Shown piece by piece: positions 166 through 42,933 of a DNA stretch of 52,008 bases. The translations under genes and the position numbers were made by a program. The notes under the pieces were generated by a model. The model saw only the letters and a program-made list of their open reading frames with translations, was not told the DNA's origin and searched no databases. Every line of letters starts with the position of its first letter. Within the stretch, counting starts at the first letter, position 1. The DNA lies in assembly GCA_028818385.1 (NCBI GenBank), contig JAPPNY010000006.1:1-52008 (forward strand), read 5' to 3'. Source of the stretch: Spirochaetaceae bacterium. GTDB taxonomy: Bacteria > Spirochaetota > Spirochaetia > SZUA-6 > Bin103.

Positions 166-1617
166 ATGCTGACCCGTATTGAAGTCGATGGCTTCAAGAA
201 CCTGGTCGATTTCTCGCTGGATCTTGGACCCTATACCTGCATTGCCGGTGTCAACGGCGTCGGCAAGTCCAACATTTTCGACGCCATCCGCTTTCTCTCG
301 CTGTTGACAGACCACACCATCAATCAATCCGCACTGCTGATTCGCAGTTCCGGACAGGACACGGGAGAAACTGGAAACCTGTTCTTCTCCGCTGATGGTG
401 ACACGATGAGCCGCATCGCGTTCGCAGCCGAGATGATCGTAGATAGACGAGTTGTGGATGACTTTGGACGACCAGGGGATCCTTCATCGACGTTCTTGCG
501 GTACGAAGTTGCGTTTCGACGGGAACCTCCATCCCCCTCTGCCGGTCCGCTCGGCGGACTTGTCCTAGAACGGGAGGAGCTTCGCCACATCCCCTCCGGA
601 CAAGCTGGGGAGAGGTTGCGTTTTCCGCATGCCAAACGTGATTTTCTGAGCAGCGTGATCTACAACAAGCGGCGCGGTTCCGGGTATATTTCTACAGTCG
701 GTGACGGAAAATCACAACCGGCGACCATCGTCATCCATCAGGATGGCGGCTCCTCAGGGCGCGCCCGTTCAGCCGCCCCTGCGGAACGCGCCCCTCGCAC
801 CATCATCGGCACCGAGAATACCGCGGCGACCCCCACGATTCTCGCAGCTCGTCGAGAAATGCAGCGGTGGCGGATACTGTCACTGGAACCCTCTGCGATG
901 CGCCGGCCTGACAAGTTCACTGAGGAACCCGGCATTACCGCCGACGGCGGACACATCCCCGTCACCCTGCACCATCTGGCCAAGCAAGCGTCGACCTCCG
1001 AGACCGCCGATGACCTCCCAGACGACATCCTGAGCAGGATTGCCAGCACGCTTTCCGGCCTCGTGCCGGTACGAGCGGTTCGGGCAGTGAGCGACGATGT
1101 CCGCCAGCTCTTTTCGCTGGAACTCGAAGAACCCGGCGGCGTACGCCTCCGCGCCAACTCCATTTCCGACGGCACGCTTCGATTCTTGGCTTTGACCGCT
1201 ATCGCGGAAGCCGCCGACGCCGGGGTGTACTGCATGGAGGAACCGGAAAACGGCATCCACCCGGAGAGGCTGGAGGCAATGAATCGACTCCTTCACGACA
1301 TCGCAGTCGACCCTGACGAACCTGTCGCCACCGACAATCCACTACGACAAGTCATCGTCGCTACCCATTCTCCTTATTTCGTGCAGCTACAGAATCCGGG
1401 GGAAATCGTGCTCGCAAAGAATCCCGCTGTCAGATCGCCTTCCGGAAAAGCCGTGTGGCCGTTGAAGTGTTATGCATTACAGGGCTCGTGGCGGGATCAC
1501 AATGGTCTGGAAGATGCTGCACGTAACGGCGGTCTAGGCACACTCGAACTGCAATCCTATTTGGTACCTCCGGAGGGTGCGCAGCTAGTATTGCCTGGTG
1601 ATTTCTGGCACCAATAG
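166..1617 (+). CDS. AAA family ATPase (AAA_15/AAA_21, OLD/SMC-like), putative defence ATPase
   Basis: This 483-residue protein is an ABC/SMC-type ATPase of the kind paired with TOPRIM nucleases. The Walker A motif GVNGVGKS is at residues 28-35, just after the typical N-terminal strand-turn (IEVDGFKNL). An ABC-like signature SISDGT is at 332-337, Walker B with the catalytic acidic pair (MEEPE) at 357-361, and the switch histidine in ATHSP at H401. The middle (about 90-320) is the variable insertion usual for this group. The gene is followed after 11 bp by a small TOPRIM-like gene on the same strand, so the two probably form one operon. Base composition is visibly lower in G+C than the transporter operons that follow, suggesting acquisition. 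Known relatives act in anti-phage systems (OLD, Gabija GajA, PARIS AriA); the role here is inferred from architecture only. Confidence 0.85.
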   Translation: MLTRIEVDGFKNLVDFSLDLGPYTCIAGVNGVGKSNIFDAIRFLSLLTDHTINQSALLIRSSGQDTGETGNLFFSADGDTMSRIAFAAEMIVDRRVVDDFGRPGDPSSTFLRYEVAFRREPPSPSAGPLGGLVLEREELRHIPSGQAGERLRFPHAKRDFLSSVIYNKRRGSGYISTVGDGKSQPATIVIHQDGGSSGRARSAAPAERAPRTIIGTENTAATPTILAARREMQRWRILSLEPSAMRRPDKFTEEPGITADGGHIPVTLHHLAKQASTSETADDLPDDILSRIASTLSGLVPVRAVRAVSDDVRQLFSLELEEPGGVRLRANSISDGTLRFLALTAIAEAADAGVYCMEEPENGIHPERLEAMNRLLHDIAVDPDEPVATDNPLRQVIVATHSPYFVQLQNPGEIVLAKNPAVRSPSGKAVWPLKCYALQGSWRDHNGLEDAARNGGLGTLELQSYLVPPEGAQLVLPGDFWHQ

Positions 1618-1628
1618 TCCGTCCGAAA

Positions 1629-2252
1629 ATGAGAATACTATTTCTCTTGATCTGTGAAGGTTCATCGGACGCTGCGCTAGTGTCCTACATTCAGGCCCTT
1701 CTCATCGAGAATGGCGCATCCGAGGCCGATGGAACCGCATCGTACCATGGCCGTCTCGTAAGCGACAAGGTGCGTAATGGCCTGCAGTATTGTGGCGATA
1801 CCGACTTGTTGTTCGTCCACCGGGATGCCGACACGGCGGGATCCGTTGCCAGATATGAGGAGATCGGACGCGGCGTGTCGGCTGCGGGGTACGGCGGTCG
1901 TTGGGTCGGGATGGTCCCGGTACGGATGATGGAGGCTTGGCTACTGGCTGATGAAGCGGCGATCCGCCGGGTCGCGGGACGCCCGCGTGGCACAGAAGCG
2001 CTCGACCTGCCCAAACCGGACCAACTTGAGAACCTCTCGAATCCCAAGCAAACGCTACGGGAGGTATTGTTGAAAGCGGGAGCACCTCGAGGAGTTCGCC
2101 GCACGAAGAGGTTCAAGGCTGACTTCGGCAGTTTTCTAAAACAGCTTGCGGAGAACCTGCCGGTGGGCAGACCCCTGGAGCAGATATCCGCTTGGATGAG
2201 ATTTCGCGATGACGTTGCAGCCGCCATGGGAAAGCAACTGCAGACGGATTGA
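1629..2252 (+). CDS. TOPRIM-like DUF4276-type protein, partner of the ATPase
   Basis: The 207-residue protein has the hallmarks of a small TOPRIM domain: an N-terminal hydrophobic strand ending in the acidic motif CEGSSD (E10) and, after a second hydrophobic strand, a DxD motif in HRDAD (D66, D68). A further conserved-looking stretch VPVRMMEAWLLAD (E102) resembles the DUF4276 family, which I name from pattern memory and not from a search. TOPRIM proteins beside AAA ATPases serve as nuclease or toxin effectors in OLD-like and PARIS systems. The gene ends one base before the end of the convergent GH106-like gene, with no terminator between them, which fits an insertion at this point. A catalytic nuclease role is inference; it could also be an ATPase-regulated toxin with another target. 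Confidence 0.7.
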   Translation: MRILFLLICEGSSDAALVSYIQALLIENGASEADGTASYHGRLVSDKVRNGLQYCGDTDLLFVHRDADTAGSVARYEEIGRGVSAAGYGGRWVGMVPVRMMEAWLLADEAAIRRVAGRPRGTEALDLPKPDQLENLSNPKQTLREVLLKAGAPRGVRRTKRFKADFGSFLKQLAENLPVGRPLEQISAWMRFRDDVAAAMGKQLQTD

Positions 2253-2253
2253 A

Positions 2254-5200
2254 TCAGAGCTCTACCACCGGGCGGGCGGTGATGCTGACAGGTCGCCGGA
2301 ACCGGACCGTCACCGGGCCGGTCAGGCCGCCGCCCTGCTGCTCCTTCGGAGCGTGTGAGGACGGGGGGAATCCGACGCTGAAGTGATTGGCCAGCGTGTT
2401 GTACACCTCGACCGTGAGATCGTTGTCACCGATACGAACGTGTTCGGTGATGCGCAGCCGATACGGCGGCCGCAGCGCGACCCCAATCCGCTCGCCGTTG
2501 AGGGTGACCTCCGCCGTGGTGTGGACCAGGCCGAGATCCAGCTCGATCTCCGTGTCGAGATGCTCCTGCTCCAGCCGGAAGCGGGTGCGGTAGTGCGCCC
2601 CGCCCGAGTAGCTGCCGAGCGCCAGCTCGCTCCAGTCCGCCAGCTCGACCGCACACGGCTCGCAGGTGAACGCCACCGGCTCCGGCATCGCCGCGCCGGC
2701 ATAGCCGCCGGGGTGCTGCTCAATCCGCACCGCCACCTGAGCGACCGCCGTGGTGGGCTCGGCCAGCGTCACGCCTCCGGCGTCGATGGAGACTTCAGCG
2801 CCGTCGACCCACACCCGCGCACCCGCGGCCTGCACGGGGAGCCGCATCTCCCTGGTGCCGGGAGGCGCCTCGAACCGTAGCCAGCCCACGCGCGGGTGAT
2901 CGGCTTCGTGCACGTCCCACACCAGCTCGCCGCCCGGCTGGAACCACGGCAACGACGGCAGGGGATGGCCGCCGGTGGCTGCCACCGCCTCCTCGGGAGC
3001 CAGCAAGGCAGCGTACATGCGGATCGGGCGGTCACCCACGTGAGCGAGCTTGAGCAGCAGCTCGTTCGGCCCGGCAGCCAGGCTCACGGTCGCCCTGCAG
3101 CGCTCGCCGGGACCGGTCGACAGCGCGAGCGCCGAGCCGTTCAGCCGCACGGCGACGGCCGCGCCGTCGACCCCGCCGATGAGCAGGTCCCACTCGCCCG
3201 CCGCAGGCGCGACGACCCTGGCCAGCAGGTAGCGAACGTGGCCGCCGGCGGCGTCCCCGTGCTCCACGCTCGGCGGGAAGACGATGTACTCCTCCGGGAC
3301 GCCCTCGAAGCTGCGGCGATCGGGATCGCCGGGCGTGGAGTGCCGGTGGCCGTAGCGGAGCGAGAAGGCGAACGGCTGCCAGCGATGCGTCCGGCCATCG
3401 ACGACGTGGTCGGCGTCCAGCCGAACGGCGCCGTTCTTGAGCTCCGCAGGTTCCGAGCCGGGCCAGAACGGTCCCAAGCTGTACGCGAAGGGACCCTCCG
3501 AGTAGAGGTAGTCCTGCCAGTGGCTGTCATCGAGTCCGGCGGTGTGCCAGCCCAGATCGGTTCCGGCCGTGCCCTGCTCTTCACGGTACCGGAACCGGCG
3601 CGCCTCCGGCCCGATGAGTCGCTCGGTAGCCGGCAGGCGGAAGTCCCCCCAGCGGTTGTCCAGTGTCGGGATCAGGGTCAGGCGCCACTCCCCGCCGACG
3701 GTCAGCGGCGCCGGGGGCGGCTCCACCTTCAGGACGCCACGAAACCCGGCCGGGCCGACCCCACCTGCGACCGCCACGTGCTTCCGTCCCCCGGAGTCCG
3801 CCAACCCTGCGACGACCGCGTCGCCGCCGACGCCGTCGAGCCGAACCACTTCGTCGAGGTTGTCATCGACCACCCGCAGCGACGTTCCCGGCCGCGAGCC
3901 CGCCGCATCGTCCCCGGCATGGAACACGACGATGAGGCCCGCGTAGCGCTCCATGTCGATCCGGACCCTGGTGCCGCCCCGCGCCGGCCGCCAGCGGAGC
4001 AGCGGGCGGGTCGATCCGGTGGCCGCGTCCCAGAGCTCCGGCTTTCCCACGCAGCGGAACGTCACTTCCACCTCGCGGCGCTCGGCGCTCTGGTTGAACA
4101 GGAAGTAGACGTCGCTCCGCCTGCCCGCCGCCCGCGTACGCCGATGGGTGTGGTACACGTCGGCGACGCTGCAGCGGACGTCGAGGTCGATGGTGCGCTC
4201 GATCATGGCGGCGACGCGCGGCCCCTCGTTGTACGGCGTGCCGTGCATCTGCATCACCGGCAGGTAGATCGCGCTGCCGCCGCGCTCGTTGCTGTTCACG
4301 TGCACGCTGTCGAGCGCCTGGCTGTAGAGCGGAAGCTGATCCATGGCGCGCTTGCCGGCGACGTGGGCGTACGCCCGGTCGGGAGCCACCTGGAAGATCG
4401 CCTGCACCAGCTCGCGCACCCGCGGATCGCCGCGTCCGTGCTCCTGCGACGCGGTCGGCAGGCGGCGGTAGCCGATCACGGTGCCGCCGGCGTCGTAGAA
4501 GCGCTTCAGGGTCTCCAGTGTGGCTGTCTTGATGGTCGTCATCGGCGGCACGACGACGCAGCGGAACTCGATCCCGGCGATGGTGAGCACCCCGTCGCCG
4601 ACCTCCGCACCGTTCAGGGAGTGATCGTCGACGAAGTCGAAGTCGATGCCGCTGCGATAGATGTGCTGCGCCAGCGCGAAGCACTCGTTGCCCGCCTCGT
4701 ACGCCAGACTGGTGAAGTGCTCGCCGCGCAGCCAGTGCGCGTGCACGGTCGTGAGCGGGTAGAGCAGCGCCACGTCGGCGCAGTGCGTGCCCTGGCTCAT
4801 GACCGCGCAGAGCGGGGAGACGTGCTGCACGAAGGCCGGCCAGTGCCGGGCGTACGGCTGCCGGAAATAGATCAGCGGCGGCTCCCACTCGTACCAGCCG
4901 CCCATGGAGCCGTAGAGCCCGCCGTGGCCGTTGTACAGGTTGAGGCCGTAGGCGAGGTTCTCGTGGGTCCAGGCGAGGTTCCGGTCCTGGCTCATGCCCC
5001 AGCCCGAGCGCCAGTAGGCGCACACCGCCGACCGCTCGCGCCGGTAGATGTGCGCGATGGAGCTGGACATCTTGGCGTCGATCAGGCAGCGGTTGCCCGG
5101 CTCGGCGCCGAGCGGGTCCTCGTTGCCGGTGATGTGGAAGTGGCGGAGGTAGCGGAAGTAGTCGACGTAGTGCCAGGTCTGGCCCAGGACGCTCTGCCGG

Positions 5201-6171
5201 CCCCAGGTGGCGATGGTCGCGAAGCGCAGGCCGCGCTCCTCGTACCAGCGGCTGAAGGGCCGGTAGAAGTGCTCCTCCAGCAGGATGGCCACCGCCTCGT
5301 AGTAGTCGCAGCGGATCTTGTCGGTGCGCGGGCCGATGTCCCGGAACAGCGCCGCGATCTCGGGCAGCGGATCGTAGCCGTGGTCGGCCCTGATGCGATC
5401 CAGCAGCGACTGCGAATAGATGATGTCCCCGCGCAGCACCCACAGCTCGTCGTGCAGGAAGACGTCCAGGGTGTCGCCGAACAGGTCGCCGAGCTCCCGC
5501 TCGTGCACCTCCGAGTACAGCTCCAGCCAGCGCGCGACGACCGCGGGATTCAGGTAGTCGAGGTCGTGGCTCTCGCTGGTGACGACGATGACGCGCCATG
5601 CGCCCGCCGGCGCGCTCCAGGTGAGCGTGCCTCCGGTGAGGCGATCGGCAAGGTCGATCCGGCTGTCTCCGTCCAGGCGGTCGCCGGCGCCTTGCGCGAC
5701 GCGGAAGGCCGCCGCGCTGACGACGGACTCGGCAGCCGGGACGGGCATCTCGAGCGCAGGTCCTCCGCCGGCCGCGGCCGCCTCGTGGCAGAGCAGGCGC
5801 CGGCCGACCAGTTCGGGCCGCGTGCGGCCCTCCTCCCGCAGGCGCTCCTGCCAGTAGCCGCGTCCTGTCCAGTCGGAGAAACCCGCCTTCATGCCGAGCC
5901 GGCGATGCTCGGCTACCGAGTGGTTGAAGAGCTCCCGCCACTCGTCGCTCCAGTAAGGAGGGTCGGGAGCGAGCGGTTCGGTGCCGACGAAGCGGGGGTA
6001 GTACCACGTCCCGCTCACCCCGGCCGCCTTCATCTGTTCGAGCTGCCAGGTGATCCGCTCCCTGGTCAGGGTGCCGGTCTCCCAGAACCAGGTGGCGAAA
6101 TCGCCGTATTCGGCCGGCGGATCCCGGAACAGGGCCAGGAGATCGGCCATCGAACGGTCCGTCGTGCTCAC
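2254..6171 (-). CDS. Large GH106-like (alpha-L-rhamnosidase-type) glycoside hydrolase
   Basis: About 1305 residues, in the usual size range for GH106. The N-terminal third reads as a TIM barrel beginning around the WFWETGTLTRERITWQLEQM region, with many Trp/Tyr/His-rich loops. Beta-rich parts follow. The C-terminus is a galactose-binding-like sandwich with the pattern 'AEVTLNGERIG...PPYRLRIT...NDLTVEVYN', typical of the accessory domains of GH106 and GH2 enzymes. No signal peptide is seen, so it may act in the cytoplasm on imported oligosaccharides. I take the GTG at 6171, which overlaps the upstream nitrilase stop as GTGA; an ATG at 6150 is an alternative. It is the last gene of the transporter-1 operon. 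Rhamnosidase specificity is not proven; other galactoside- or uronide-active relatives are possible. Confidence 0.7.
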   Translation of the reverse strand: MSTTDRSMADLLALFRDPPAEYGDFATWFWETGTLTRERITWQLEQMKAAGVSGTWYYPRFVGTEPLAPDPPYWSDEWRELFNHSVAEHRRLGMKAGFSDWTGRGYWQERLREEGRTRPELVGRRLLCHEAAAAGGGPALEMPVPAAESVVSAAAFRVAQGAGDRLDGDSRIDLADRLTGGTLTWSAPAGAWRVIVVTSESHDLDYLNPAVVARWLELYSEVHERELGDLFGDTLDVFLHDELWVLRGDIIYSQSLLDRIRADHGYDPLPEIAALFRDIGPRTDKIRCDYYEAVAILLEEHFYRPFSRWYEERGLRFATIATWGRQSVLGQTWHYVDYFRYLRHFHITGNEDPLGAEPGNRCLIDAKMSSSIAHIYRRERSAVCAYWRSGWGMSQDRNLAWTHENLAYGLNLYNGHGGLYGSMGGWYEWEPPLIYFRQPYARHWPAFVQHVSPLCAVMSQGTHCADVALLYPLTTVHAHWLRGEHFTSLAYEAGNECFALAQHIYRSGIDFDFVDDHSLNGAEVGDGVLTIAGIEFRCVVVPPMTTIKTATLETLKRFYDAGGTVIGYRRLPTASQEHGRGDPRVRELVQAIFQVAPDRAYAHVAGKRAMDQLPLYSQALDSVHVNSNERGGSAIYLPVMQMHGTPYNEGPRVAAMIERTIDLDVRCSVADVYHTHRRTRAAGRRSDVYFLFNQSAERREVEVTFRCVGKPELWDAATGSTRPLLRWRPARGGTRVRIDMERYAGLIVVFHAGDDAAGSRPGTSLRVVDDNLDEVVRLDGVGGDAVVAGLADSGGRKHVAVAGGVGPAGFRGVLKVEPPPAPLTVGGEWRLTLIPTLDNRWGDFRLPATERLIGPEARRFRYREEQGTAGTDLGWHTAGLDDSHWQDYLYSEGPFAYSLGPFWPGSEPAELKNGAVRLDADHVVDGRTHRWQPFAFSLRYGHRHSTPGDPDRRSFEGVPEEYIVFPPSVEHGDAAGGHVRYLLARVVAPAAGEWDLLIGGVDGAAVAVRLNGSALALSTGPGERCRATVSLAAGPNELLLKLAHVGDRPIRMYAALLAPEEAVAATGGHPLPSLPWFQPGGELVWDVHEADHPRVGWLRFEAPPGTREMRLPVQAAGARVWVDGAEVSIDAGGVTLAEPTTAVAQVAVRIEQHPGGYAGAAMPEPVAFTCEPCAVELADWSELALGSYSGGAHYRTRFRLEQEHLDTEIELDLGLVHTTAEVTLNGERIGVALRPPYRLRITEHVRIGDNDLTVEVYNTLANHFSVGFPPSSHAPKEQQGGGLTGPVTVRFRRPVSITARPVVEL

Positions 6172-6968
6172 GAAGCGGACAGCACCGCGTAGAGCTCGGG
6201 CCGGCGGACCCGCTGCTCGTTCCAGTGGACGGCGCGCGCCTCTCGCATCGCGGCCATGTCCAGCTCGGCGCGGATAATCGATTCGCCAGCTCCGGCCTCC
6301 GCGACCACGTTCCCTTTCCAGTCGAAGATCGCGCTGTGTCCGCCACGGGCATGGCCCTGGGCGCGATTGGCGACCGCGACTGCCGCGCAGTTGCTGGCCG
6401 CGTGGTAGGCCGCCGATCCGCGCTTCACGCCGGGGCGGTTGGTGAGCCACAGAATGATCTCCGCCCCCTTGACGGCGAGGATCCGCGGCACCTCCGGGTA
6501 GTCGCCGTCCTTGCAGATCATGATGCCGACCCTGGCGAACGGGGTATCGAACACGGGCATGTCGTCACCCGGCACCAGAACGTCCGCTTCCCGCGCGATC
6601 GCCGGGTCGTAGTGGTTCAGGGAGAGGTGGGTCTTCCGACACATGCCGGCCAGCGCTCCATCGGGGTCGATGAGGACGACCGTATTGTGCAGACCGCGAG
6701 GGGACTTCTCGATCAGACCCGCGGCGACGAAGACCCCGCAACGCGCGGCCGCCCGCGCCAGCACCGTGGACTGCTCGCCCGGCACGGAACTCGCCAGCGA
6801 AGCGAAGTCCGTCCCGAAGTAGTCCGACACGGCTACCTCCGGGAACGCGACGAGCTCCGCTCCCCGCGCTGCCGCGTCGTCGATGAGCTGCACCATGCGG
6901 CGAAGATTCGCGTCGACGTGGCCCGGCAGCCCGTCGAACTGGACGCTTGCGACGGTGACGCTGTTCAT
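6168..6968 (-). CDS. Carbon-nitrogen hydrolase (nitrilase superfamily)
   Basis: A 266-residue protein of normal length for a single-domain nitrilase/amidase. The catalytic triad is visible: Glu44 in FPEVAVSDY, Lys112 in CRKTHLSLN and the nucleophile Cys152 in IMICKDGDYPE. It should hydrolyse a C-N bond of an amide or carbamoyl substrate in the cytoplasm; substrate unknown. It sits between a BNR protein gene and the GH106-like gene in the transporter-1 operon and overlaps the latter by four bases, so translation is probably coupled. In that setting it may remove N-acyl or amide groups from an amino sugar or aglycone, which is inference. Confidence 0.85.
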   Translation of the reverse strand: MNSVTVASVQFDGLPGHVDANLRRMVQLIDDAAARGAELVAFPEVAVSDYFGTDFASLASSVPGEQSTVLARAAARCGVFVAAGLIEKSPRGLHNTVVLIDPDGALAGMCRKTHLSLNHYDPAIAREADVLVPGDDMPVFDTPFARVGIMICKDGDYPEVPRILAVKGAEIILWLTNRPGVKRGSAAYHAASNCAAVAVANRAQGHARGGHSAIFDWKGNVVAEAGAGESIIRAELDMAAMREARAVHWNEQRVRRPELYAVLSAS

Positions 6969-6993
6969 CGTCCGAGACGGCTCCGGGTGCGCG

Positions 6994-7911
6994 TCAGCCC
7001 AGGCCCACCTGGGCGAGGTAAATGCACGCCTTGCCTTCGTGCGACGAGTAGTAGCTGACCCACAGCCGCTCCTCGTGCCAGACCAGGCCGGGGTAGGAGC
7101 TGTCGCCGCCGCTCGGCAGCACCAGCGCCACGTCGAAGGCGTCGCGGCTCATCCTAGCCAGCGCGGTGACCGGCGCCCCCTCGGCATCGCTTACGCGGGC
7201 GCCGGCCCAGAGCTCGCCGTTCGGGAGGCGGATGAAGTTGGGGCCGCCCAGGCTCTGCGTCAGGTGCGCGTACGACCACTCGGTGTAGGGCGGCCGGCTG
7301 CTGCCGATCCAGTCGGGCCGGATCAGCGCGATCATCTCGCCGTCGGGCATGATGCGCAGGGTGGTCTCGCTGACCGTCCAGCTCCCATCCGGTGGGCGCA
7401 ACTCCGTCACCCACTGCCAGTCCAGGCCGTCACGGGTCGTGTAGAGGAAGCCGCGGCGCGGATTGCTGCCTTCACCCAGCTTCGAGACGGAGTAGCCGAT
7501 TCCGTCGTGCCACGTCACCCGCCACAGCCAGTGGTCCTCGGCCAGCACGCGGGCGGGCGCACTCCAGGTGGTGCCGTCCTCGGAGAACGACACGCGGGGC
7601 GAGCGCGAGAGGTACGTCGTGCCCCGGAAGACCGAGCCGCCGGCCAGCAGCAGCATGCGTCCGTCCGGCATGACCGACAGCTTGGGATCGCGCAGGTCGA
7701 TCCCCTCCTCCGTGACCTCGGCGGCGCTCGTCCATGCCACGCCGTCATCGGACACCAGCACCCGGAGCGTGCCGATGCTCTCGCCGTGATCCTGAGCCTC
7801 CCGGAACGTGCACCACCAGCGGCCGCGGTGGCGCAGCAGGTCGGTGAAGGCGCTGTGCGGCGCCCGGTCCCATATTCGCTCGACTGAGATCAAGCGCGCT
7901 TCGGCACCCAT
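6994..7911 (-). CDS. BNR/Asp-box repeat protein, sialidase-fold
   Basis: This 305-residue protein carries recurring Asp-box-like turns (VSDDGVAW, SEDGTTWSAP, TRDGLDW), each expected to cap a blade of a beta-propeller. This is the fold of sialidases and of many other glycan-active or glycan-binding proteins. No signal peptide is evident and I do not see the FRIP/YRIP arginine motif of true sialidases, so neuraminidase activity is doubtful. It follows the oppF-type ATPase gene with a one-base gap and precedes the nitrilase gene, so it belongs to the transporter-1 operon. It is one of four intact BNR proteins in the window. Confidence 0.75.
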   Translation of the reverse strand: MGAEARLISVERIWDRAPHSAFTDLLRHRGRWWCTFREAQDHGESIGTLRVLVSDDGVAWTSAAEVTEEGIDLRDPKLSVMPDGRMLLLAGGSVFRGTTYLSRSPRVSFSEDGTTWSAPARVLAEDHWLWRVTWHDGIGYSVSKLGEGSNPRRGFLYTTRDGLDWQWVTELRPPDGSWTVSETTLRIMPDGEMIALIRPDWIGSSRPPYTEWSYAHLTQSLGGPNFIRLPNGELWAGARVSDAEGAPVTALARMSRDAFDVALVLPSGGDSSYPGLVWHEERLWVSYYSSHEGKACIYLAQVGLG

Positions 7912-7912
7912 C

Positions 7913-8989
7913 TCAGCCTCCGGATCCGGCGGAAGCGGACGGCCCGCCGGCCTCCGCGCCTGCCCACGGCGGCTTGGTGATGACGCGCCCCTGCAGCGTC
8001 AGTTCGCTCGCGCGTATGCACGCGCTCATCTGTTCCACGGCAACCTCCTCGAGGTGCGGCACGTCCTGACGGCAGGCGTCGACCGCATACGGACAGCGGG
8101 TATGAAATGCGCAGCCGGCCGGCGGGTTGGCCGCGCTCGGCACATCGCCTTCCAGGACGATGCGCTCGTCGGTATCGTCCGGATCCGGGGCCGGGAACGC
8201 CGAAAGCAGCGCCTCCGTATACGGATGCCGGGGATTGCGGAACACCGCCTCCGACGCTCCGGTCTCGACGATGCGCCCCAGGTACATCACGGCGACGCGG
8301 TCGCTGATGTAGCGGACCACGCTCAGATCATGGGCGATGAACAGATAGCTCAGGGCGAACCGGCGCTGCAGCTCGATCATCAGATTGAGGATCTGCGCCT
8401 GCACCGACACGTCGAGGGCCGACACCGGCTCGTCGGCGACGACCAGTTCCGGCTTCAGCGCCAGCGCGCGGGCAAGGCTGATCCGCTGACGCTGGCCGCC
8501 CGAGAACTCGTGCGGGAACCGGTCCGCGTACGCCGGCCGCAACCCCACCGCCTCCAGCAGGGGCTCCACCTCCCTGCGCAGCGCCGGCCCGCGAATCCCT
8601 TCCTGCACCTCCAGCGGCTCGCCGACGATCTCGATCACGCGCAGGTAGGGGTTGAGCGAGGAATAGGGATCCTGGAACACCACCTGCACGTGGCGCCGGA
8701 ACGCCCTGAGCTCCTGGCGGCTCAGGGCGTGCACGTCGATGCGCTCTCCGTTGGAGTGAAAGATCACCGAGCCTCCGGACGGCCTGGCGAGGCCCGCGGC
8801 CACCCTGCCGGCGGTGGTCTTGCCGCAGCCGCTCTCGCCGACCAGTCCCAGGGTCTCACCCTTCCGCACGGAGAAGCTCACGCCGTCCACGGCCTTGACC
8901 TGTCCGACGGTGCGGCGCAGCAGCCCCTTCTCGATCGGGAAATGCTTCCGCAGGTTCTCGACGGTCAGCAGATCGGGTGGTTCCGCCAC
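7913..8989 (-). CDS. Opp/Dpp-type ABC transporter ATP-binding protein, OppF/DppF subfamily (transporter 1)
   Basis: 358 residues. The Walker A motif GESGCGKT is at 51-58, the signature FSGGQRQR and Walker B ELVVADEP follow, and the H-loop is in FIAHD. The C-terminal extension carries the conserved cysteine cluster [14 protein letters not shown] seen in Opp/Dpp ATPases. It energises import together with the DppD-type partner encoded just upstream. The start is GTG. Substrate type cannot be read from the ATPase; the surrounding glycosidase genes favour oligosaccharides over peptides. Confidence 0.92.
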
Positions 8990-8991
8990 GC

Positions 8992-9993
8992 CTACTCCTC
9001 GCCTGACCCCTCATAGAGCCAGCACGCCACCGTGTGCCCCGCTCCGACCTCGAACTCCGGCGGCTTCTGCGCGCACCGGTCGGTGGCGTGATCGCAGCGG
9101 GGCGCAAAGGGGCAGCCGGTGCTGTGCGTCAACGGATGCGGAACCGAGCCCTGGATGACCGCCAGCCGTTGCTTCGGTTCCTCCGCCATGGAGGGAATCG
9201 AGCGGAACAGCGCCTGCGTGTAGGGGTGCCGCGGATCGTGGAAGAGGCCGCGGACCGGCGCGCGCTCCATCACCTGGCCCAGGTACATCACCATCACCGC
9301 GTCGGCCATCTTCGCGATCACCCCCAGGTCGTGGGTGATGAACAGGATGGCCATGTGGAACTGCTCCTGCAGCCGCTTCAGCAGCGCCAGGATCTGCGCC
9401 TCGATGGTGACGTCGAGAGCGGTGGTCGGCTCGTCGGCGATCAGCAGCCTCGGCCGGCAGACCAGCGCCATGGCGATCATGACCCGCTGCCGCATGCCGC
9501 CCGAGAGCTGGTGCGGGTAGGTGTTCATGCGCTGCTCCGGGTCCGGCATGCCCACCGCGCGCAACATCTCGACCGCCGTGGAGGCCGCCTCCTCGGCGCT
9601 CACGGACGTGTGCTCCTGCAGGGCCTCCCTGATCTGGAAGCCGATGGTGTACACCGGGGTCAGCGCCCGCATCGGCTCCTGAAAGATCATGGACACGTCC
9701 CGGCCGCGGATGGCACGGATCCGCCGGCCGCGCTGCGGCAGCCTGACCAGGTCGACCGGGCCCCGGTCGGTCTCCAGCATCATGGAGCCGCTCTCCAGCT
9801 TGCCGGGCGGGCTCTTGACCAGCCGCAACACGCTCAGCGCGGTGACGCTCTTGCCGCAGCCGCTCTCTCCCACCACCCCCAGCGTCTGGTTCGGCGCTAC
9901 GCTGAAGCTCACGCCGTCCACCGCGCGCACGACGCCGTCGTCGGTGTGGAAGTAGGTCCGCAGGTCGCTCACCCGGAGCAGCGCGCCGCTCAT
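8992..9993 (-). CDS. Opp/Dpp-type ABC transporter ATP-binding protein, OppD/DppD subfamily (transporter 1)
   Basis: 333 residues from the ATG at 9993, which overlaps the upstream permease stop as ATGA. An open frame continues further upstream but only reads through the permease gene in the wrong frame. Walker A GESGCGKS is at 42-49, the signature LSGGMRQR and Walker B LLIADEP follow, then the cysteine-rich tail (CPFAPRC...C). It pairs with the OppF-type ATPase two bases downstream. Confidence 0.92.
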
Positions 9994-11111
9994 GTGGCAA
10001 ATGGATCGGCGGCGTCGCGGACGCCGTCGCCCAGGAAGTTGAAGGCCAGCACGATGACGATGATGAAGATCGCCGGCAGGCCGAGCCAGGGCTGGTGCAG
10101 CAACGCCTGCACGCTCTGCGCCCCCTGCAGCAGGATGCCCCAGCTCGTCATGGGCGGCGTGACGCCGACGCCCAGGAAGCTCAGGCTGCTCTCCGCCAGG
10201 ATCAGCTCGGGCACGGACAGCGTCGCCACGACGATGATGTGGCTGAGCGAGCCCGGCAGCAGGTGCTTGGTGATGATGCGCCAGTTGCCGGCGCCGACGC
10301 CCTCGGCGGCCAGGACGTACTCCTCGTTGCGATACGCCAGCACCTTCCCGCGCACGACCCGTGCCAGGCCGCCCCAGCCGATGAGCGAAATCGCCACGAC
10401 GATCCCCATGTACACCCACCCGGAAGGCCAGGTGGCGGGAATGGCGGCCGAGAACGCCAGCCACAGCGGCACCCTGGGGAACGAGATCAGCACCTCGATG
10501 AACCGCTGCAGCGCGTGGTCGATCATGCGGCCGAAGTAGCCGGAGGCGATGCCGAGAATGGTGCCGATGATGATCGTCACCAGGGTGCCTACCAGCGGTA
10601 CGCTCAGGCTCACCTGCGATCCGATCAGGATGCGGGACAGCAGGTCCCGGCCCAGGGTGTCCGTCCCGAACAGGAAGATCGAGCCGCCCTCTTCGACCCC
10701 GAACAGGTGGCGCTCCATCGGGAAGATGCCGAGCCACCGGTACGGCTCTCCCTGCACGAAGAACCGCACGTAGTACTTGGTGTCCTTCTGCTCCTGGTAG
10801 GTGAGCGCGAAGGTCTCCAGGTCCAGCTCCTGCTTGAGCGCGTACGTGAAGGGCCGGCCCAGACGGCCGTCCTCGTCGAAGAAGTGGACCCGCTGCGGCG
10901 GGGCGAAGCGCAGCTTGGTGAACTTCTCGTCGTGGTGATAGGGGCTCAGGAACTCCGCGAAGAGCGCCATCAGGTAGAACAGCGCGACCACGACCGCGCT
11001 CGCGACCGCCAGTCGGTTCTTGCGGAATCTCCTCCAGGCAAGCTGGCGCGGCGTCCGGCGTTCCGTTTCCAGAGCATCGGCAGCTTCGAAACCGACCTCG
11101 TGGGTGCTCAC
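9990..11111 (-). CDS. Opp/Dpp-type ABC transporter permease, DppC/OppC subfamily (transporter 1)
   Basis: 373 residues with one N-terminal membrane helix (about 33-55), a long soluble segment (about 70-150) and a C-terminal five-helix BPD_transp_1 core. The coupling loop lies in the region of ARVVRGKVLAYRNEEYVLAA. The unusually long soluble segment between helix 1 and the core is shared with the paralogue at 16993-18111, so it is a trait of this transporter subfamily. The start is GTG. It lies 9 bp after the dppB-type gene. Confidence 0.9.
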   Translation of the reverse strand: MSTHEVGFEAADALETERRTPRQLAWRRFRKNRLAVASAVVVALFYLMALFAEFLSPYHHDEKFTKLRFAPPQRVHFFDEDGRLGRPFTYALKQELDLETFALTYQEQKDTKYYVRFFVQGEPYRWLGIFPMERHLFGVEEGGSIFLFGTDTLGRDLLSRILIGSQVSLSVPLVGTLVTIIIGTILGIASGYFGRMIDHALQRFIEVLISFPRVPLWLAFSAAIPATWPSGWVYMGIVVAISLIGWGGLARVVRGKVLAYRNEEYVLAAEGVGAGNWRIITKHLLPGSLSHIIVVATLSVPELILAESSLSFLGVGVTPPMTSWGILLQGAQSVQALLHQPWLGLPAIFIIVIVLAFNFLGDGVRDAADPFAT

Positions 11112-26930: not shown

Positions 26931-29678
26931 TCAATCAGCGACCTCGAACGTCGGCAAGCACGGCACCTTGGTAACGACAGCGATCAACATGGCTGAAGAC
27001 TGGCTTGCGCTGACCTGATCCTTCGTCTCGCAGTCAACATCCACGTGCACGATCTCCGTGAAGTCGTAGCGGTGTATATTGCCGGCCTTGTCCCGGAGGA
27101 CTATCTCCGATAATCCCCAGACACCCGGGGCCGACCCGCGGGGAAGGATGACTTCATCAGTACAGGTTGTCCAACCTGCTGCATCCTCATCGTTGCACCG
27201 ATACGGATCCGCATAATGATGGTAATCCACCCCCTGAGGATCGCGAAGGTAGTACCAACCTCCTATGCCGTCACCATAGCCGGAATCCTCGTCACGCACA
27301 TGGTAGGTCAACTTAACAACCGTTTCGCCGTCCGGCGCCTGCGGACGGACAGGTCTCGCGCTAATGCTGATTCTGTCGACATCCAGTTCCGGCAGCGTCA
27401 GATCAGGATGATCGGTCACCAGCTCTATCCGCTGTGGCGGCTCGTCTGCGTTGCCGTTCTCGGAGAAATAGACTCCTTGCGTATTCTTTGCTTGATCGGT
27501 CATCTTTATGTAGTTCATCGAATAGACAGAGCTCGGCATGTAGTGCGGCATCACGAACTGCACCTCGCATTGCTCGAGGACAGCATCGTAGTGTCCAAAC
27601 TCCTCCACACGATAAGTTGCATCTATCGTGTCATTCAACGAGGCATAGCAACCCCATGGTTCTGGCATGGCTTTGTCTTCATCCACCTTCCACGTTGCGT
27701 GAATGACCTGCACCCTCTCTCCTTCGCGAGTTGCATTGCTGATTCTAAGCGCAGCCGTGCCTCTGACATACGCGGGCGGAGTCACGTCTTCGAGCGGATT
27801 ATCGATATAGAGCTGCCAACCGAAGTCTTCAATTCCCTCATGCCGCTCGTTTCCGTGTGCATCTCTGAGGCTGATATGACGAGGCGCCCAGTAGCCCGAC
27901 TTGGCGTACTTGCTGATGGTCAGCCGGTCGGACACCAGTATGTTTCCAGACTCACCATGCCGGGTTCGACCGCGCGCGTCGACTGGGTAGAACCAGGTGT
28001 CCACGAAGGTACCGATCTCGCTGTGGATACGCGTGCCTGCGTTGGAGGCGCCCTCCAGTACCGGATTGTCGGCATGCAACTCTATTACTATGTGGATCTG
28101 CTTGTCGTCCTCCGGAGCGCCTTCCACGCGGATGTCCACGCGCCGAATCTTTCCAGGGTACACGTAGTCGGGATAGAGATTGTAGACCTGAAACGTGAGG
28201 TCTTCGCGGATCTTGGACAGATAGACGCTACCCTGCATGATCCGATCCCGGATGAACTCGTACTTCGCCGGCGCGCGAGACCTCAGCTTGTCAGGGTTCA
28301 CCAGGAAATGGGCGATGGACTCGGCCATGTCCTCGTTTGGGTTCTCGCCGTGAGCATAGGCTGAAACGAATTCGGTCTGCTTGGTCGTAGACCAGCCGCT
28401 GTGGGCGCGGTCGTTGCGGTACCAGCCTCCGAGTGCGATCCAATCCTGCTTGAGCTGGGCGTCGAACAGGTGAGCCCAAAGGAAGTGGGCCTTCTCGTGA
28501 ATGATCAGCCGATGGATCTCGCTGTCAGAGGCGGCGCGGAACCCCGACTCCATGAACTCGATGTATCCAGCCGATGGCCACGCCACGGCGGGGGCTTGCG
28601 GGTACAACGGATGGGGAGTGCCGTTCAGCCTTCGGACGAGGAACCGTAAATCGGGAAGCCGGTGCATGCCGCTCGGCATTTCCTCAAGCATGTTGATGAG
28701 GCGGATAATCTCTTCCGGATGGAATTTCTGAAAGCGCGCCCGCGGTTCGCCGCCGGTGGTGCTCGCGGTCAGCGCTCGATAGTCAGGTACAAGGGTCGTA
28801 AGGCCGTAGCGCTCGTGGAGGATTTTCTCGTACGCGGATTCGTCCGTACCGTCGGCGGTAACGAAACGAATCAACGCGTGATGCAGGCGCTGCGAGTAGT
28901 AGCGACTTCTCTTGCCTTCGACCAAGGCAAGTCGAGGTGCGGCGTTCGCGAAGGCCCTGGCCGAGATAGTCACCCGCTGGCGGCCATCGACTCGGTCCAA
29001 GCGGATGTCGTGAGCGACATGCTCCGAGGTAAGAAGCCACTCGCTAGGCGGAAGGCTTTGATCCCGGTAGGGATCGCGCTGGGGCTGTGGTATCGACTTC
29101 AGCGTTTGCAGCAGCCGGTAGGCATGCTCCTGAGTCCATTCGGCTCCTGGTGAGTCCACCAGACGGATGTTGTAGTCTTGCAGGAGCATCACGGGAGAAG
29201 ACCCGTCTGGCAGCCGAATCACGTCGTCCAACAGTTGCACTTCAATAGGCATATTGACATGCGCTGAGTATTCGTATCCGGCGACAGTCTCATCTGCCTC
29301 CCAGTGATACACGAACGACGCCGACTCGTTAGGTACGGACTCAGGTGGCGAGCTGCATAGTGTTCTGATATCAGACTGGGAAAACCCGCCAGACGGCACT
29401 GGTGCCCGCAATAGTCGTCCGTCACGACAGGTTATAGTGGTGTTGTCTTCAGCCATGGCGGTCAAGGCAAGAACGAAAACCCCTACGACAATAGCGCAGC
29501 TCTGGGCGGCGATCTTACAGGTTCGATTCCGCCTGACCTCATTGCAGTGACCACACCGGCGGCCCTTGGGCCAGTAAATGTGCTCGAACCGCTCGCGCAC
29601 GGCATCCTCAGTCGCGAACGCCTTCACCAGGTCGATGAGCGTGATCCCGGCCCGGTACGCCTTGCCCGGGCCAGTCAC
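26931..29678 (-). CDS. Secreted ATLF-like zinc metallopeptidase with IS1595 transposase-derived N-terminus
   Basis: 915 residues. Residues 1-49 (ITLIDLVKAFATEDAVRERF then a CGHC half zinc ribbon) match the start of IS1595-family transposases. A hydrophobic signal-like segment follows (about residues 58-75, ending ALTAMA) and then a large soluble protein. The zinc motif HEKAH is at 394-398, and a glutamate-rich NEDMAES (E449/E453) about 50 residues on supplies the third ligand, as in anthrax-lethal-factor-like peptidases (FVSAYA...NPNEDMAE). Several beta-sandwich domains with '...RDxxGN' turns follow. Scattered cysteines suggest export. No start codon lies between the transposase part and the signal, so the peptidase seems to be expressed from the transposase GTG, which overlaps the upstream stop as GTGA. 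G+C is lower than in flanking genes. Confidence 0.7.
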   Translation of the reverse strand: MTGPGKAYRAGITLIDLVKAFATEDAVRERFEHIYWPKGRRCGHCNEVRRNRTCKIAAQSCAIVVGVFVLALTAMAEDNTTITCRDGRLLRAPVPSGGFSQSDIRTLCSSPPESVPNESASFVYHWEADETVAGYEYSAHVNMPIEVQLLDDVIRLPDGSSPVMLLQDYNIRLVDSPGAEWTQEHAYRLLQTLKSIPQPQRDPYRDQSLPPSEWLLTSEHVAHDIRLDRVDGRQRVTISARAFANAAPRLALVEGKRSRYYSQRLHHALIRFVTADGTDESAYEKILHERYGLTTLVPDYRALTASTTGGEPRARFQKFHPEEIIRLINMLEEMPSGMHRLPDLRFLVRRLNGTPHPLYPQAPAVAWPSAGYIEFMESGFRAASDSEIHRLIIHEKAHFLWAHLFDAQLKQDWIALGGWYRNDRAHSGWSTTKQTEFVSAYAHGENPNEDMAESIAHFLVNPDKLRSRAPAKYEFIRDRIMQGSVYLSKIREDLTFQVYNLYPDYVYPGKIRRVDIRVEGAPEDDKQIHIVIELHADNPVLEGASNAGTRIHSEIGTFVDTWFYPVDARGRTRHGESGNILVSDRLTISKYAKSGYWAPRHISLRDAHGNERHEGIEDFGWQLYIDNPLEDVTPPAYVRGTAALRISNATREGERVQVIHATWKVDEDKAMPEPWGCYASLNDTIDATYRVEEFGHYDAVLEQCEVQFVMPHYMPSSVYSMNYIKMTDQAKNTQGVYFSENGNADEPPQRIELVTDHPDLTLPELDVDRISISARPVRPQAPDGETVVKLTYHVRDEDSGYGDGIGGWYYLRDPQGVDYHHYADPYRCNDEDAAGWTTCTDEVILPRGSAPGVWGLSEIVLRDKAGNIHRYDFTEIVHVDVDCETKDQVSASQSSAMLIAVVTKVPCLPTFEVAD
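29531..29678 (-). mobile_element. 5' fragment of an IS1595-family transposase gene
   Basis: The first ~49 codons of the metallopeptidase frame read as the conserved N-terminus of IS1595 transposases up to the first CxxC of the zinc ribbon. The remaining transposase, including the second zinc knuckle and the catalytic domain, is missing. I did not find terminal inverted repeats. Confidence 0.65.
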
Positions 29679-36424: not shown

Positions 36425-37360
36425 CTAACCCTTGATCGACCCGATCATGATCCCCTTGACGAAGTATCTCTGCAAGAAGGGGTACACCAGAATTATCGGT
36501 ATGATGGTCACCGCCATCGCCGTCGCCTTCACCGACTCCAGCGTAGGCTTGTAGCCCATGATGTTGCCGAACGCCGGATTCTGCAGTGCGAGTTCCTTCG
36601 CGGCGTCCACGTCTCTGATGATCTGAACCAGCTTGAATTGCAGCGTAGCGAGTTCCTTGCCTCCGAAAATCATCGAATCGAACCAGCTATTCCACTGCCA
36701 AACCGCGTTGAACAGGATGATCGCTGCGATTACCGCCTTCGAAACAGGCAAGACTATCACAAAGAAGATCCGCAGATCGTTCGCCCCGTCGATCTTGGCC
36801 GATTCCTCGATCTCAGCCGACAGACCCTTGAAGAACGTCATCATCACGATCGCGTTGAACGCGTTGAACAGAAGCGGGATGATGTAGACCAGGAAGTTAC
36901 GGTACAAACCGATGCTCCGGATCAACAGGAAGAACGGTATCAGACCTCCGTTGAGATACATCGTTATGAGCATGTACGTGAGAATCGTCCTTCTGCCGAC
37001 AAGATGCTTCTTCGATGCGCCGTACGCGAAGCACGCCGTGAAGAACACGCTTGTCAAGGCTCCTATGACCGTTCTGGCCACCGAAATGTAGAACGCCCGA
37101 AACAGCGCCGGATCCCTGAAAAAGAACAGGAAGTTGTCCAACGTGATGACCCTCGGGTAGAAGAAGAGACGCCCGCGAAGCGCGTCAACAGGGTCGTTCA
37201 ACGCCAATACCAGAACAAGATAGCAAGGATAGACACAGACGGCAGCCAGGACGATGAGCACGAAAACGTTGAGGTAGTCAAACGCGGTATTCTTGTCGAG
37301 GGCCCTCTTTTGGTGCTCTGCCGGCAGCGACTCCACTTCCGCACTAGAAAATGCTTTCAC
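36425..37360 (-). CDS. Carbohydrate ABC transporter permease (MalG/LplC/YtcP-like)
   Basis: 311 residues from the GTG at 37360; a longer open frame would read into the upstream gene. Six membrane helices and the EAA coupling loop (EIEESAKIDGANDLRIFF) identify a sugar permease of the CUT1 class, closest in style to YtcP/LplC. The start lies inside the end of the other permease gene (17-base overlap). G+C and codon choice differ from the Opp-type operons. Confidence 0.9.
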   Translation of the reverse strand: MKAFSSAEVESLPAEHQKRALDKNTAFDYLNVFVLIVLAAVCVYPCYLVLVLALNDPVDALRGRLFFYPRVITLDNFLFFFRDPALFRAFYISVARTVIGALTSVFFTACFAYGASKKHLVGRRTILTYMLITMYLNGGLIPFFLLIRSIGLYRNFLVYIIPLLFNAFNAIVMMTFFKGLSAEIEESAKIDGANDLRIFFVIVLPVSKAVIAAIILFNAVWQWNSWFDSMIFGGKELATLQFKLVQIIRDVDAAKELALQNPAFGNIMGYKPTLESVKATAMAVTIIPIILVYPFLQRYFVKGIMIGSIKG

Positions 37361-38297
37361 CCGTATACCACCTCGAGAATCTGTTTGCCGCGAACAGCAG
37401 AATAAACGCCACCAATGACTGAAACAGCCCGACGGCGGTCGAATAGGAGAACCTGGCCTTCTGCAATCCCATCTTGTACGTATACGTCTCCAGTATTTCC
37501 GCGACATCCAGGACCAGGATGTTCTGCATCAGAAAGAGCTGCTCGAAGTTCTGAGTCATCATCCGGCTGATCGCCAGAATCAGCAAGATTATCACGGTCG
37601 CCTTTATGCCGGGAATCGTGATATACCAAGCCCTCTGGAATCGCGATGCGCCGTCCATGTATGCTGCCTCATAGAGGGTCGGGCTGATCGTCGAGATGGC
37701 CGCAAGGTATATGATCGAGCTGAACCCGAAGAACTTCCAGATGTCGCTCAGCACCACGATCGAAAAGAACGAAACCCGGTCGGCGAGGAATGCGTACGGT
37801 TCGCCGACGATGTTCAGCGAAGTCAACAGGTAGTTGATCATGCCCGATTCGGAGAAGAACGTTATCAGGAACGCCGCTACGAATGCCCACGAGAGAAAAT
37901 GGGGCATGTACGTGAGCGTTTGCACGCTCTTCTTGAACAGTTTCATCCCCTTCAGCTCGTTCAACATAAGCGCGAATACGATCGGCACGGGAAAGCCGAT
38001 CACGAGTTTCGCGGCGCTTATCAGAAAGGTGTTTCTCAGCGCGTTGTAAAAGAGCCTGTCCGTGAACAGATCCTGGAAATGGTCGAAACCGCTCCAGGGG
38101 CTCCCCCAGATGCCGATTCCCACGTTATAATCCTTGAACGCTATGATGACCCCATATATCGGCATGTAGGCAAAAATGAACAGCCACACCACTGCGGGCA
38201 TGACCAGCAGCAGCAGGTATTTCTGCTCGGCGACCCTTTTCAGCAGCCGGTTCTTGCCGACAGCCGTGGTCGTGGAGTAGTGGCCCATCCTCACCAT
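37344..38297 (-). CDS. Carbohydrate ABC transporter permease (LplB/YteP-like)
   Basis: 317 residues, six helices, with the N-terminal YLLLLVMPAVVWLFIFAYMP segment and the coupling loop YEAAYMDGASRFQRAW typical of LplB-like permeases. It pairs with the downstream permease. The start at 38297 overlaps the end of the glycosidase-like gene; an ATG at 38288 is an alternative. Confidence 0.9.
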   Translation of the reverse strand: MVRMGHYSTTTAVGKNRLLKRVAEQKYLLLLVMPAVVWLFIFAYMPIYGVIIAFKDYNVGIGIWGSPWSGFDHFQDLFTDRLFYNALRNTFLISAAKLVIGFPVPIVFALMLNELKGMKLFKKSVQTLTYMPHFLSWAFVAAFLITFFSESGMINYLLTSLNIVGEPYAFLADRVSFFSIVVLSDIWKFFGFSSIIYLAAISTISPTLYEAAYMDGASRFQRAWYITIPGIKATVIILLILAISRMMTQNFEQLFLMQNILVLDVAEILETYTYKMGLQKARFSYSTAVGLFQSLVAFILLFAANRFSRWYTGESIF

Positions 38298-40945: not shown

Positions 40946-41140
40946 ACTCTTGCTCCCTGCTTCATTTCAGGACTCTACCAGGCGCGCCGCCCTTCGTGGT
41001 CTGCACACGTCTCGGTGCGAGCTCACAAAAAGACCTTCAGGCGCGACCGGATCGGGCGCCTGAAGGTCTTTCGTCTCGGTGCGACTGTCTTCGGCCGCGC
41101 CGTGTGCTATACGGCCGAAGAACACATGCACATCCTCAAC
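40946..41140. other. Intergenic region holding the SBP3 hairpin
   Basis: Besides the hairpin at 41029-41071 it repeats the words 'TCTCGGTGCGA' on both sides of the stem (near 41010 and 41074), giving an outer direct repeat. No gene is seen. Confidence 0.6.
41029..41071 (-). terminator. Perfect 16-bp hairpin with T-run after the sugar SBP gene
   Basis: Arms 41029-41044 and 41056-41071 are perfectly complementary around an 11-base loop, and on the minus strand the stem ends in a run of five T. It lies between the SBP gene and the large glycosidase-like gene of the same orientation, so it is a third case of a hairpin directly after a binding-protein gene in this window. Confidence 0.85.
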
Positions 41141-42826
41141 TCACTCTCTGCCGAGCTGCGCCAATTGTCTCCTATGCTCCTCGGTCAAGGCGGTCTCCAC
41201 GTCGCGGGCGCCCAAACGATCGATCTCTTCCAACGCTGCGTCGTAGATCTTCATGAGCTCGTCCGCAGAATCGGCAACCACCATTCTGGATGCGGCGACG
41301 GCCATCGCCTCCTCCACCTGGGTGTGCTTGATGTCAACATCGCTTCCAGGCAACCACGAACTTGCCAGTTCCGCAAATCCGAGATCCCAGGCATCGACCA
41401 CGAAAGGCTTGAGTCTTTGCTCCATCGTCGCCCTGTGTTCCGGCGACGCTCCCAGATAGTCGTCCACGTACAGCGTCCAGTAGTAGGTATCGCAGAACGG
41501 CACCCATCTGCAGAGGACTCCGTACTTGGAGGCGTAATCGACAAAGCTGGCGTTCAGCTCATCCTGCGCTGATTGCTTCATCACTTTCTTGCCATCGACC
41601 CAGTCCCACGTCTCTCCCTCGGCTCCCAGGATCAGCGTGGTTTGCCCCTCCTCGGTGAGCGCCCACTGGAGGAACCTGACCGCTCTGTCGGGCCGTTCGG
41701 CGTTCTTGGTTATTACCAACCCGTTGTAGCCCTTGTTTCTGATCGTCGGTTTCGTGAAATCGACGCCCTGCTTCACGATCGGGCCGATGTCGGTGTACGT
41801 CCTGTCATCGTTGCCGTCGTTCTGCCTGATGGTCGTATTGACCGTGTTGTCGACATTGAAGATGGCACCGACGGTACTCACGTAGCCGGCCGAGTACAGT
41901 CTCTCCTCGGATTGCTGCGTCTGTTCGGTGAATTGGCCCTTCGTGATCAAGCCATCCTGGTACAGGCCATTCAACCATTGCAGGAACTCCAGATACTTGG
42001 GATCTCTGAACAGCAGTTGCACCTCGTCGCCCTGCGGGTAGTATCCGGAGACGTGCATCCCGAACGTACCTCGGAACATGTTGTTGCCGGCCCTTCCGAA
42101 CAGCAGGTCGGACACGCTGCCGCCGAAGTCGATCGGCAGGACATCCGGATAGTTCGCATGAGCGAATCTGAGATAATCGTCGTACTCGCTCAGGGTCGTT
42201 ATGTCGTCCTTGCCGTACGCTTCCAGGATGTCCCGCCTGGTGAACATGATGCCTTCGCCACTCGTGAAGGGCACGTTTATCTGCTCGAAGGCTTCCATCA
42301 CCTCGGCATAGTACATGAACCCTGCCCAGTACCACATCTTGCCGTCGTCCGCCGTATGGTACGTGTGATATGCAGGCGGTACCAGATCCCACGTCTTGGG
42401 AGCGTATTCATCGATCAGGTCACCGATCGCGTGTACCATGCCGGCGTCGATGATCTGCTGGAGCAGGGGACTTGTGTAATTGCCGAAAGCCAGCATTTCC
42501 GGCAGGTCGCCGGACGCGATCATCGGTGCCAGGACCTCGTCCTCTTCACCCTCCAGCACTTCCATGTCGAGCGTGACACCGGTTTGTTGAGTGATGAATT
42601 GGGAAACCAGACCATCATCCCATCGGACTGCCGGCCTGCAACCGCCCCATGTGTTTTGCCAGAACTTGATCGTGATCGGCGACGTATCCGCCATATACTC
42701 CCACTCGAAGTCCCCTGTCGGCATAATCGCGGCAGGTGCTGAGGTATCGCCCTCCTCGCCGGTACCGGTGGCGAAAGCGGAGAATCCCAAGAGCCCGACC
42801 AACAGTAGAAAAGGTATCTTTTTCAT
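41141..42826 (-). CDS. Extracellular sugar-binding protein of a LplA/YtcQ-like ABC transporter
   Basis: 561 residues from the ATG at 42826, five bases after AAAGGAG; a longer frame upstream is not used. The signal peptide KKIPFLLLVGLLGFSAFA is followed by TGTGEEG, the short acidic linker style of many spirochaete and Firmicute SBPs, but no lipobox cysteine is present. Aromatic-rich stretches such as EAWDLV-like 'TWDLVPPAYHTYH' and 'WRWVPF'-like segments fit a large SBP (family 1-like) for oligosaccharides. It heads the sugar-transporter operon. Confidence 0.85.
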   Translation of the reverse strand: MKKIPFLLLVGLLGFSAFATGTGEEGDTSAPAAIMPTGDFEWEYMADTSPITIKFWQNTWGGCRPAVRWDDGLVSQFITQQTGVTLDMEVLEGEEDEVLAPMIASGDLPEMLAFGNYTSPLLQQIIDAGMVHAIGDLIDEYAPKTWDLVPPAYHTYHTADDGKMWYWAGFMYYAEVMEAFEQINVPFTSGEGIMFTRRDILEAYGKDDITTLSEYDDYLRFAHANYPDVLPIDFGGSVSDLLFGRAGNNMFRGTFGMHVSGYYPQGDEVQLLFRDPKYLEFLQWLNGLYQDGLITKGQFTEQTQQSEERLYSAGYVSTVGAIFNVDNTVNTTIRQNDGNDDRTYTDIGPIVKQGVDFTKPTIRNKGYNGLVITKNAERPDRAVRFLQWALTEEGQTTLILGAEGETWDWVDGKKVMKQSAQDELNASFVDYASKYGVLCRWVPFCDTYYWTLYVDDYLGASPEHRATMEQRLKPFVVDAWDLGFAELASSWLPGSDVDIKHTQVEEAMAVAASRMVVADSADELMKIYDAALEEIDRLGARDVETALTEEHRRQLAQLGRE

Positions 42827-42847
42827 CGTTGCTCCTTTTGGTGTTTC

Positions 42848-42900: not shown

Positions 42901-42933
42901 GGTCACCGCCTTTGGCTACACTGCTCGCGAGCA

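Follow-up and report, generated by a model that had tools for sequence, protein, structure and literature searches.

The DNA analysed here, hereafter the window, is a stretch of 52,008 nucleotides from a contig of a Spirochaetaceae bacterium (JAPPNY010000006.1). Two codirectional genes lie at its start:

166-1617, + strand: OLD/ABC-type ATPase gene of the HEC-01A type (483 aa, ATG start), proposed sensor and restrainer
1629-2252, + strand: HEC-01B-type partner gene (207 aa, ATG start), proposed TOPRIM nuclease effector

ORF coordinates place the two genes 11 bp apart and the end of a convergent gene at position 2254, one base from the stop codon of the partner, as the first-pass annotation had described. 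The convergent gene encodes a GH106-type glycosidase. Upstream of the ATPase gene, the window offers 165 bp only. The G+C content is 59% over positions 1-2000 versus 67-73% over positions 2001-10000, and GC3 is 63% in the ATPase and partner genes alike versus 89% in the convergent gene. Elsewhere in the window, a low-GC ORF of 915 aa (26931-29678) matched a metallopeptidase only weakly and below the cut-off (E 0.0008), and its start resembles a transposase zinc ribbon. The region 36425-42934, with about 57% G+C against 70% in its surroundings, contains apparent sugar ABC-transporter genes (two permeases and a binding protein), as read from their translations.

The best PADLOC model for the ATPase was HEC-01A (PDLC04184, E 9.1e-91, 303 bits), which far exceeded AriA (E 4e-27, 93.9 bits), mad3 and others. 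The PADLOC model for AbiLi was also matched (E 2e-13), and Pfam assigned AAA_21 (E 8e-25) and AAA_15. Sequence searches with an ATPase profile retrieved OLD (6p74, E 2e-12) and AriA (8ux9, E 9e-6). The nearest folds to the predicted structure (pLDDT 89.6) were, among the matches listed, the heads of SMC, Rad50, PtuA and OLD proteins, and AriA was absent among the best 50 fold matches listed. The motifs from which an OLD-type ATPase had been recognized in the window proved 97-100% conserved in an alignment that retained 78 of the 81 sequences, the window's included:

247-273, + strand: Walker A, residues 28-36 (GVNGVGKSN); G33, K34 and S35 at 99% of 78 sequences
1165-1185, + strand: ABC signature-like motif, residues 334-340 (SDGTLRF); S334, G336, T337 and F340 at 99-100%, R339 at 97% (n=78)
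1237-1242, + strand: Walker B glutamates E358-E359; 100% of 78 sequences
1366-1368, + strand: switch histidine H401; 100% of 78 sequences

For the partner, the best model was PADLOC HEC-01B (PDLC04210, E 1.8e-24). Pfam DUF4276 (PF14103) scored 19 bits, below its gathering cut-off of 30.2, and neither PF14491 (DUF4435) nor PF13707 (RloB) gave a match up to E 10. Conservation was scored across 75 of the 81 sequences, the window's included, namely those over 190 aa:

1656-1670, + strand: E10-G-x-x-D14 at the end of strand 1, TOPRIM acidic motif 1; position 10 is E in 68 and D in 6 sequences, D14 is present in 74/75
1818-1832, + strand: H64-R-D66-A-D68 at the end of strand 3, TOPRIM DxD motif; D66 in 75/75, position 68 is D in 67 and E in 6 of 75
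1932-1940, + strand: E102-A-W104 of an E-x-W-L-L motif after strand 4; E102 in 75/75, W104 in 74/75; aligns with FE-WLLL of RloB
2046-2048, + strand: near-invariant lysine K140; 74/75 sequences

TOPRIM domains are built of alternating strands and helices, with a glutamate after strand 1 and a DxD motif after strand 3. The AlphaFold2 model of the partner (pLDDT 93) runs through strand 2-8, a helix, strand 32-38, a helix, strand 60-64, a helix, strand 91-95 and further helices, with E10 and D14 following strand 1 and D66 and D68 following strand 3. The modelled order of elements and the conserved residues thus agree with the TOPRIM topology.

Furthermore, profile alignments were compared with shuffled controls. 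The profiles comprised 16 sequences from 20 loci for DUF4276, 10 from 14 for DUF4435, 25 from 30 for RloB and 27 from 30 for OLD, three rows of the latter beginning late at contig edges. The partner aligned with DUF4276 at a score of 67.0 versus 18.6 for the best of 100 shuffles (hhalign probability 96%) and with RloB at 34.9 versus 17.6 for the best of 100 (51%), with the EG, DxD and E-x-W-L-L motifs in register. The scores were 18.8 versus 18.0 for the best of 100 shuffles with DUF4435 (0.7%) and 22.5 versus 20.4 for the best of 60 with the OLD TOPRIM (3.4%), the latter alignment spanning 29 columns around the first motif only. These comparisons point to a clear kinship of the partner with DUF4276, a likely one with RloB, and an only suggestive one with AriB and OLD. 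The earlier impression that the partner stands nearer to DUF4276 than to the DUF4435 of AriB was therefore borne out by the profiles (67.0 versus 18.8), though the Pfam DUF4276 score remained below its cut-off.

A search of PDB folds with the partner model returned no match at E <= 0.001. The best-ranked TOPRIM-type fold was the C-terminal region of OLD (6nk8, rank 2, E 0.043), and topoisomerase I (ranks 9 and 11) and primase (rank 27) appeared among unrelated Rossmann-like proteins; the 50 VIA matches listed for the model contained no TOPRIM protein. The proposal of a stand-alone TOPRIM partner hence found backing in topology, motifs and profile alignments, and none in a significant PDB fold match. 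The partner is probably a TOPRIM nuclease. Passages of PMC10440598 relate RloB to OLD_TOPRIM.

Because both proteins and distant relatives (five partners and two ATPases) gave HEC-01A or HEC-01B as their best PADLOC models, the gene pair is, by profile matching, a member of the PADLOC candidate system HEC-01. It is hence already catalogued, and its initial description as a possibly undescribed relative no longer holds. HEC stands for 'Hma embedded candidates' in a table row of PMC10855318, HEC-01 occurs as a mere name in the consulted part of one survey (PMC12724379), and HEC-05 and HEC-06 figure as studied systems in excerpts of PMC11411939. The literature searched, which did not cover the HEC preprint, yielded neither a functional study of HEC-01 nor a mention of DUF4276.

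A co-occurrence check, as the first-pass annotation had advised, revealed a strict association between the two genes. A total of 616 proteins matched the partner at E <= 0.001, and 80 of the 109 partner loci found in genomes were kept. All of these loci (80/80) had a codirectional ATPase gene immediately upstream, and a partner without an ATPase was seen at 0/80; the contigs of two loci (L003 and L059) begin within the ATPase gene. With the window included, the intergenic distance was at most 60 nt in 79 of 81 pairs, the median of -4 nt corresponding to overlapping ends and the exceptions being L027 (-94 nt) and L071 (+188 nt). In 396 Actinomycetota genomes, a sample not selected by the pair and in which only 4 to 7 candidates were scored per genome, the ATPase (E <= 1e-40) and the partner (E <= 1e-10) were each found in five genomes; these were the same five, one of them the source of the query, and the genes were always adjacent. 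ATPase and partner also co-varied strongly across 68 of 72 pairs (Mantel r 0.859; best of 2000 permutations, 0.213), which descent as one shared unit suffices to explain. Across the broader DUF4276 family, 44/46 loci had an ATPase upstream, and at the remaining two (L100 and L282) the contig starts just before the partner. The pair is conserved far beyond chance.

Two departures from the complete pair were observed. At L196 (4165-5445), the ATPase gene is followed by recJ with no partner gene in between, although the other pairs of that clade are complete. In P0099, a protein of 303 residues, the C-terminal part of the ATPase is fused in frame to a partner that lacks the first acidic motif, which looks like the product of a deletion.

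According to record titles, the 80 partner loci span about ten phyla. The window's ATPase and partner share 83% and 71% identity, respectively, with those of a Spirochaetia MAG, 74% and 57% with those of a gammaproteobacterial MAG, and 70% and 60% with those of a Dehalococcoidia chromosome. These identities suggest that the pair was transferred between phyla, binning errors aside.

At one Amycolatopsis locus (L217), the pair occupies a 2.1-kb segment that is missing from L218, where the same flanks stand 23 bp apart. Two related loci carry about 800 bp of other sequence in the slot of the pair (L219, 3264-4063; L221, 4663-5464); this filler contains an ORF of some 265 residues. No repeats were seen at the ends when these were read by eye. 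Among 60 Amycolatopsis genomes, the partner was matched strongly in four and weakly in a fifth. Of the four strongly matched pairs, three were shown to adjoin a convergent CCA/poly(A) nucleotidyltransferase gene, and coordinates put the fourth there too; we draw no mechanism from this neighbor. With these four pairs placed beside the same gene, repeated insertion and an ancient inheritance followed by numerous losses are equally possible.

In Caldilineae, the pair lies between a PD-(D/E)XK nuclease gene and recJ. Inspection of 30 recJ loci showed the pair just upstream at 14, the PD-(D/E)XK gene in its place at another 14, the ATPase gene alone at one and a contig edge at one. A CCA-adding enzyme was considered as the downstream gene in this clade and rejected, the gene being recJ, and no tRNA mechanism was drawn from it. 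Neighboring proteins were common only within clades, the largest group comprising 6 of 434.

Taken together, the empty sites, the GC3 contrast and the patchy presence show that the pair is accessory and acquired, in agreement with what its lower G+C had first suggested; the two genes form a real, accessory and inseparable module.

We then compared the nearest ORFs of the 80 loci with ORFs at a distance of at least about 5.5 kb for matches to PADLOC models at E <= 1e-15. Once the near-duplicates L032 and L077 had been dropped (153 to 149 and 124 to 121 proteins), 42 PADLOC families were hit by the 149 nearest proteins and 42 by the 121 distant ones, these counts being families hit and not a per-protein rate. 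The ORFs came from a home-made, error-prone caller; in L001 an antisense ORF displaced the ATPase. The predicted enrichment near known defense genes thus failed to appear, and the defense-island idea was rejected given equal counts near and far. Furthermore, no relatives were found among 50,697 phage records or encoded by viral contigs. Only 4 of 72,556 plasmid records matched the ATPase; none reached 60% identity, and all four were predicted to be non-mobilizable.

How might such a pair act? As described in PMC12409363, the AriA hexamer of PARIS sequesters three copies of AriB; once released by a phage protein, for example Ocr, AriB dimerizes and cleaves tRNA by means of two metal ions. Sections of PMC10440598 present AAA proteins with TOPRIM_OLD toxins, one of them of the RloB-like node D44, as validated in toxicity neutralization. 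By analogy with PARIS and these AAA/TOPRIM_OLD pairs, we infer that HEC-01A may restrain and release HEC-01B. The ATPase would assemble, bind the nuclease and hold it off; an infection cue would alter the ATPase and free HEC-01B. The freed nuclease could then hold two metal ions through E10, D14, D66 and D68, aided by E102 and K140, and cut nucleic acid, so that the infected cell is stopped. Its substrate would be slightly more likely host RNA, such as tRNA, than DNA, a weak preference suggested by the closest partner families being stand-alone effectors. An immune function is plausible on these analogies, and we consider it rather probable that the HEC-01 module is a PARIS/AbiL-like immune switch in which the ATPase restrains a separate DUF4276/RloB-type TOPRIM nuclease until infection.

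The choice of substrate separates this reading from one in which the same module would cut DNA in the manner of OLD or Gabija, attacking invading DNA directly instead of arresting the cell through RNA. OLD and GajA are described as cutting DNA in excerpts of PMC12409363, the closest folds to the ATPase among the matches listed include SMC and Rad50 heads, OLD 6p74 is among its sequence matches, and the Caldilineae neighbors, a PD-(D/E)XK nuclease and recJ, are DNA-processing. That setting is however limited to one clade, the module has no helicase partner, and the better profile matches of the partner are to the stand-alone effectors RloB and DUF4276, making a DNA-cutting module rather unlikely.

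The absence of any nuclease gene without its ATPase at 80 loci, set beside the single ATPase-alone locus (L196), would also suit a plain toxin-antitoxin or addiction module maintained by selfish stability with no specific antiviral role, as would the compact two-gene layout and the lack of enrichment near defense genes. Yet the ATPase is a large, conserved ABC ATPase of the sensor type seen in PARIS, Septu and OLD, and the lack of relatives among phage records and viral contigs, with only 4 plasmid records matching the ATPase, is unlike common addiction modules; we regard this explanation as improbable. A housekeeping or repair role could account for long retention at one Caldilineae site (14/30 loci), but it is largely refuted by a distribution as patchy as 5/396 Actinomycetota genomes and four strong matches in 60 Amycolatopsis genomes, with neighbors that change between clades, and seems scarcely credible.

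The immune switch favored here would have consequences beyond this locus. HEC-01 entered a widely used catalogue on context alone; the near-perfect pairing, the conserved acidic residues and the kinship with RloB and AriB now supply a concrete mechanism that can be tested and indicate which residues to change. If it holds true, ATPase-plus-TOPRIM alarms would be much commoner than PARIS, as DUF4276 occurred in 39 of 150 genomes of one phylum and DUF4435 in 13 of the same sample. Several genomes (G004, G005, G001, G006, G007 and others) are rich in DUF4276 matches, with a maximum of 8 among 19 genomes of one set and of 7 in the sample of 150, whereas 14 well-known controls had 0; some of the multiple matches may represent fragments of a single gene. 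As a doubtful extension, HEC-01B/DUF4276, RloB and AriB might be branches of one large superfamily of stand-alone TOPRIM effectors, each controlled by a separate OLD-type ATPase, with an RNA target particular to HEC-01B; genomes in which DUF4276 is matched at least five times would then hold a repertoire of parallel PARIS-like alarms differing in triggers or targets.

Compared with catalogued systems, the pair agrees with HEC-01, both models being matched by adjacent genes and nothing differing in the two models. With regard to the 'embedded' of that name, the pair was not seen inside a larger system at the sampled relatives or in the window, where 165 bp are visible upstream. It resembles PARIS in its two chains, an OLD-type ATPase and a TOPRIM-like partner, and its ATPase profile finds AriA; unlike AriB, however, the HEC-01B partner has no DUF4435 match and aligns far more weakly with DUF4435 than with DUF4276. 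AbiL/RloAB (AbiLi with the RloB-like AbiLii) shares the gene order, the AbiLi match and a TOPRIM-like partner with aligned motifs, although the partner here lacks a Pfam RloB match. OLD class 1 and the GajA protein of Gabija join an ABC ATPase to TOPRIM chemistry, as is proposed here, but do so in a single chain, whereas the pair consists of two ORFs. The ATPase is related to MAD3 of MADS (120.6 bits), yet it falls well under the NCBIfam curated cut-off of 420. Finally, Septu and retron PtuA proteins provide some of the nearest ATPase folds in Foldseek among the matches listed, but the partner of PtuA is an HNH nuclease, with which the titles of the fold matches agree, unlike HEC-01B.
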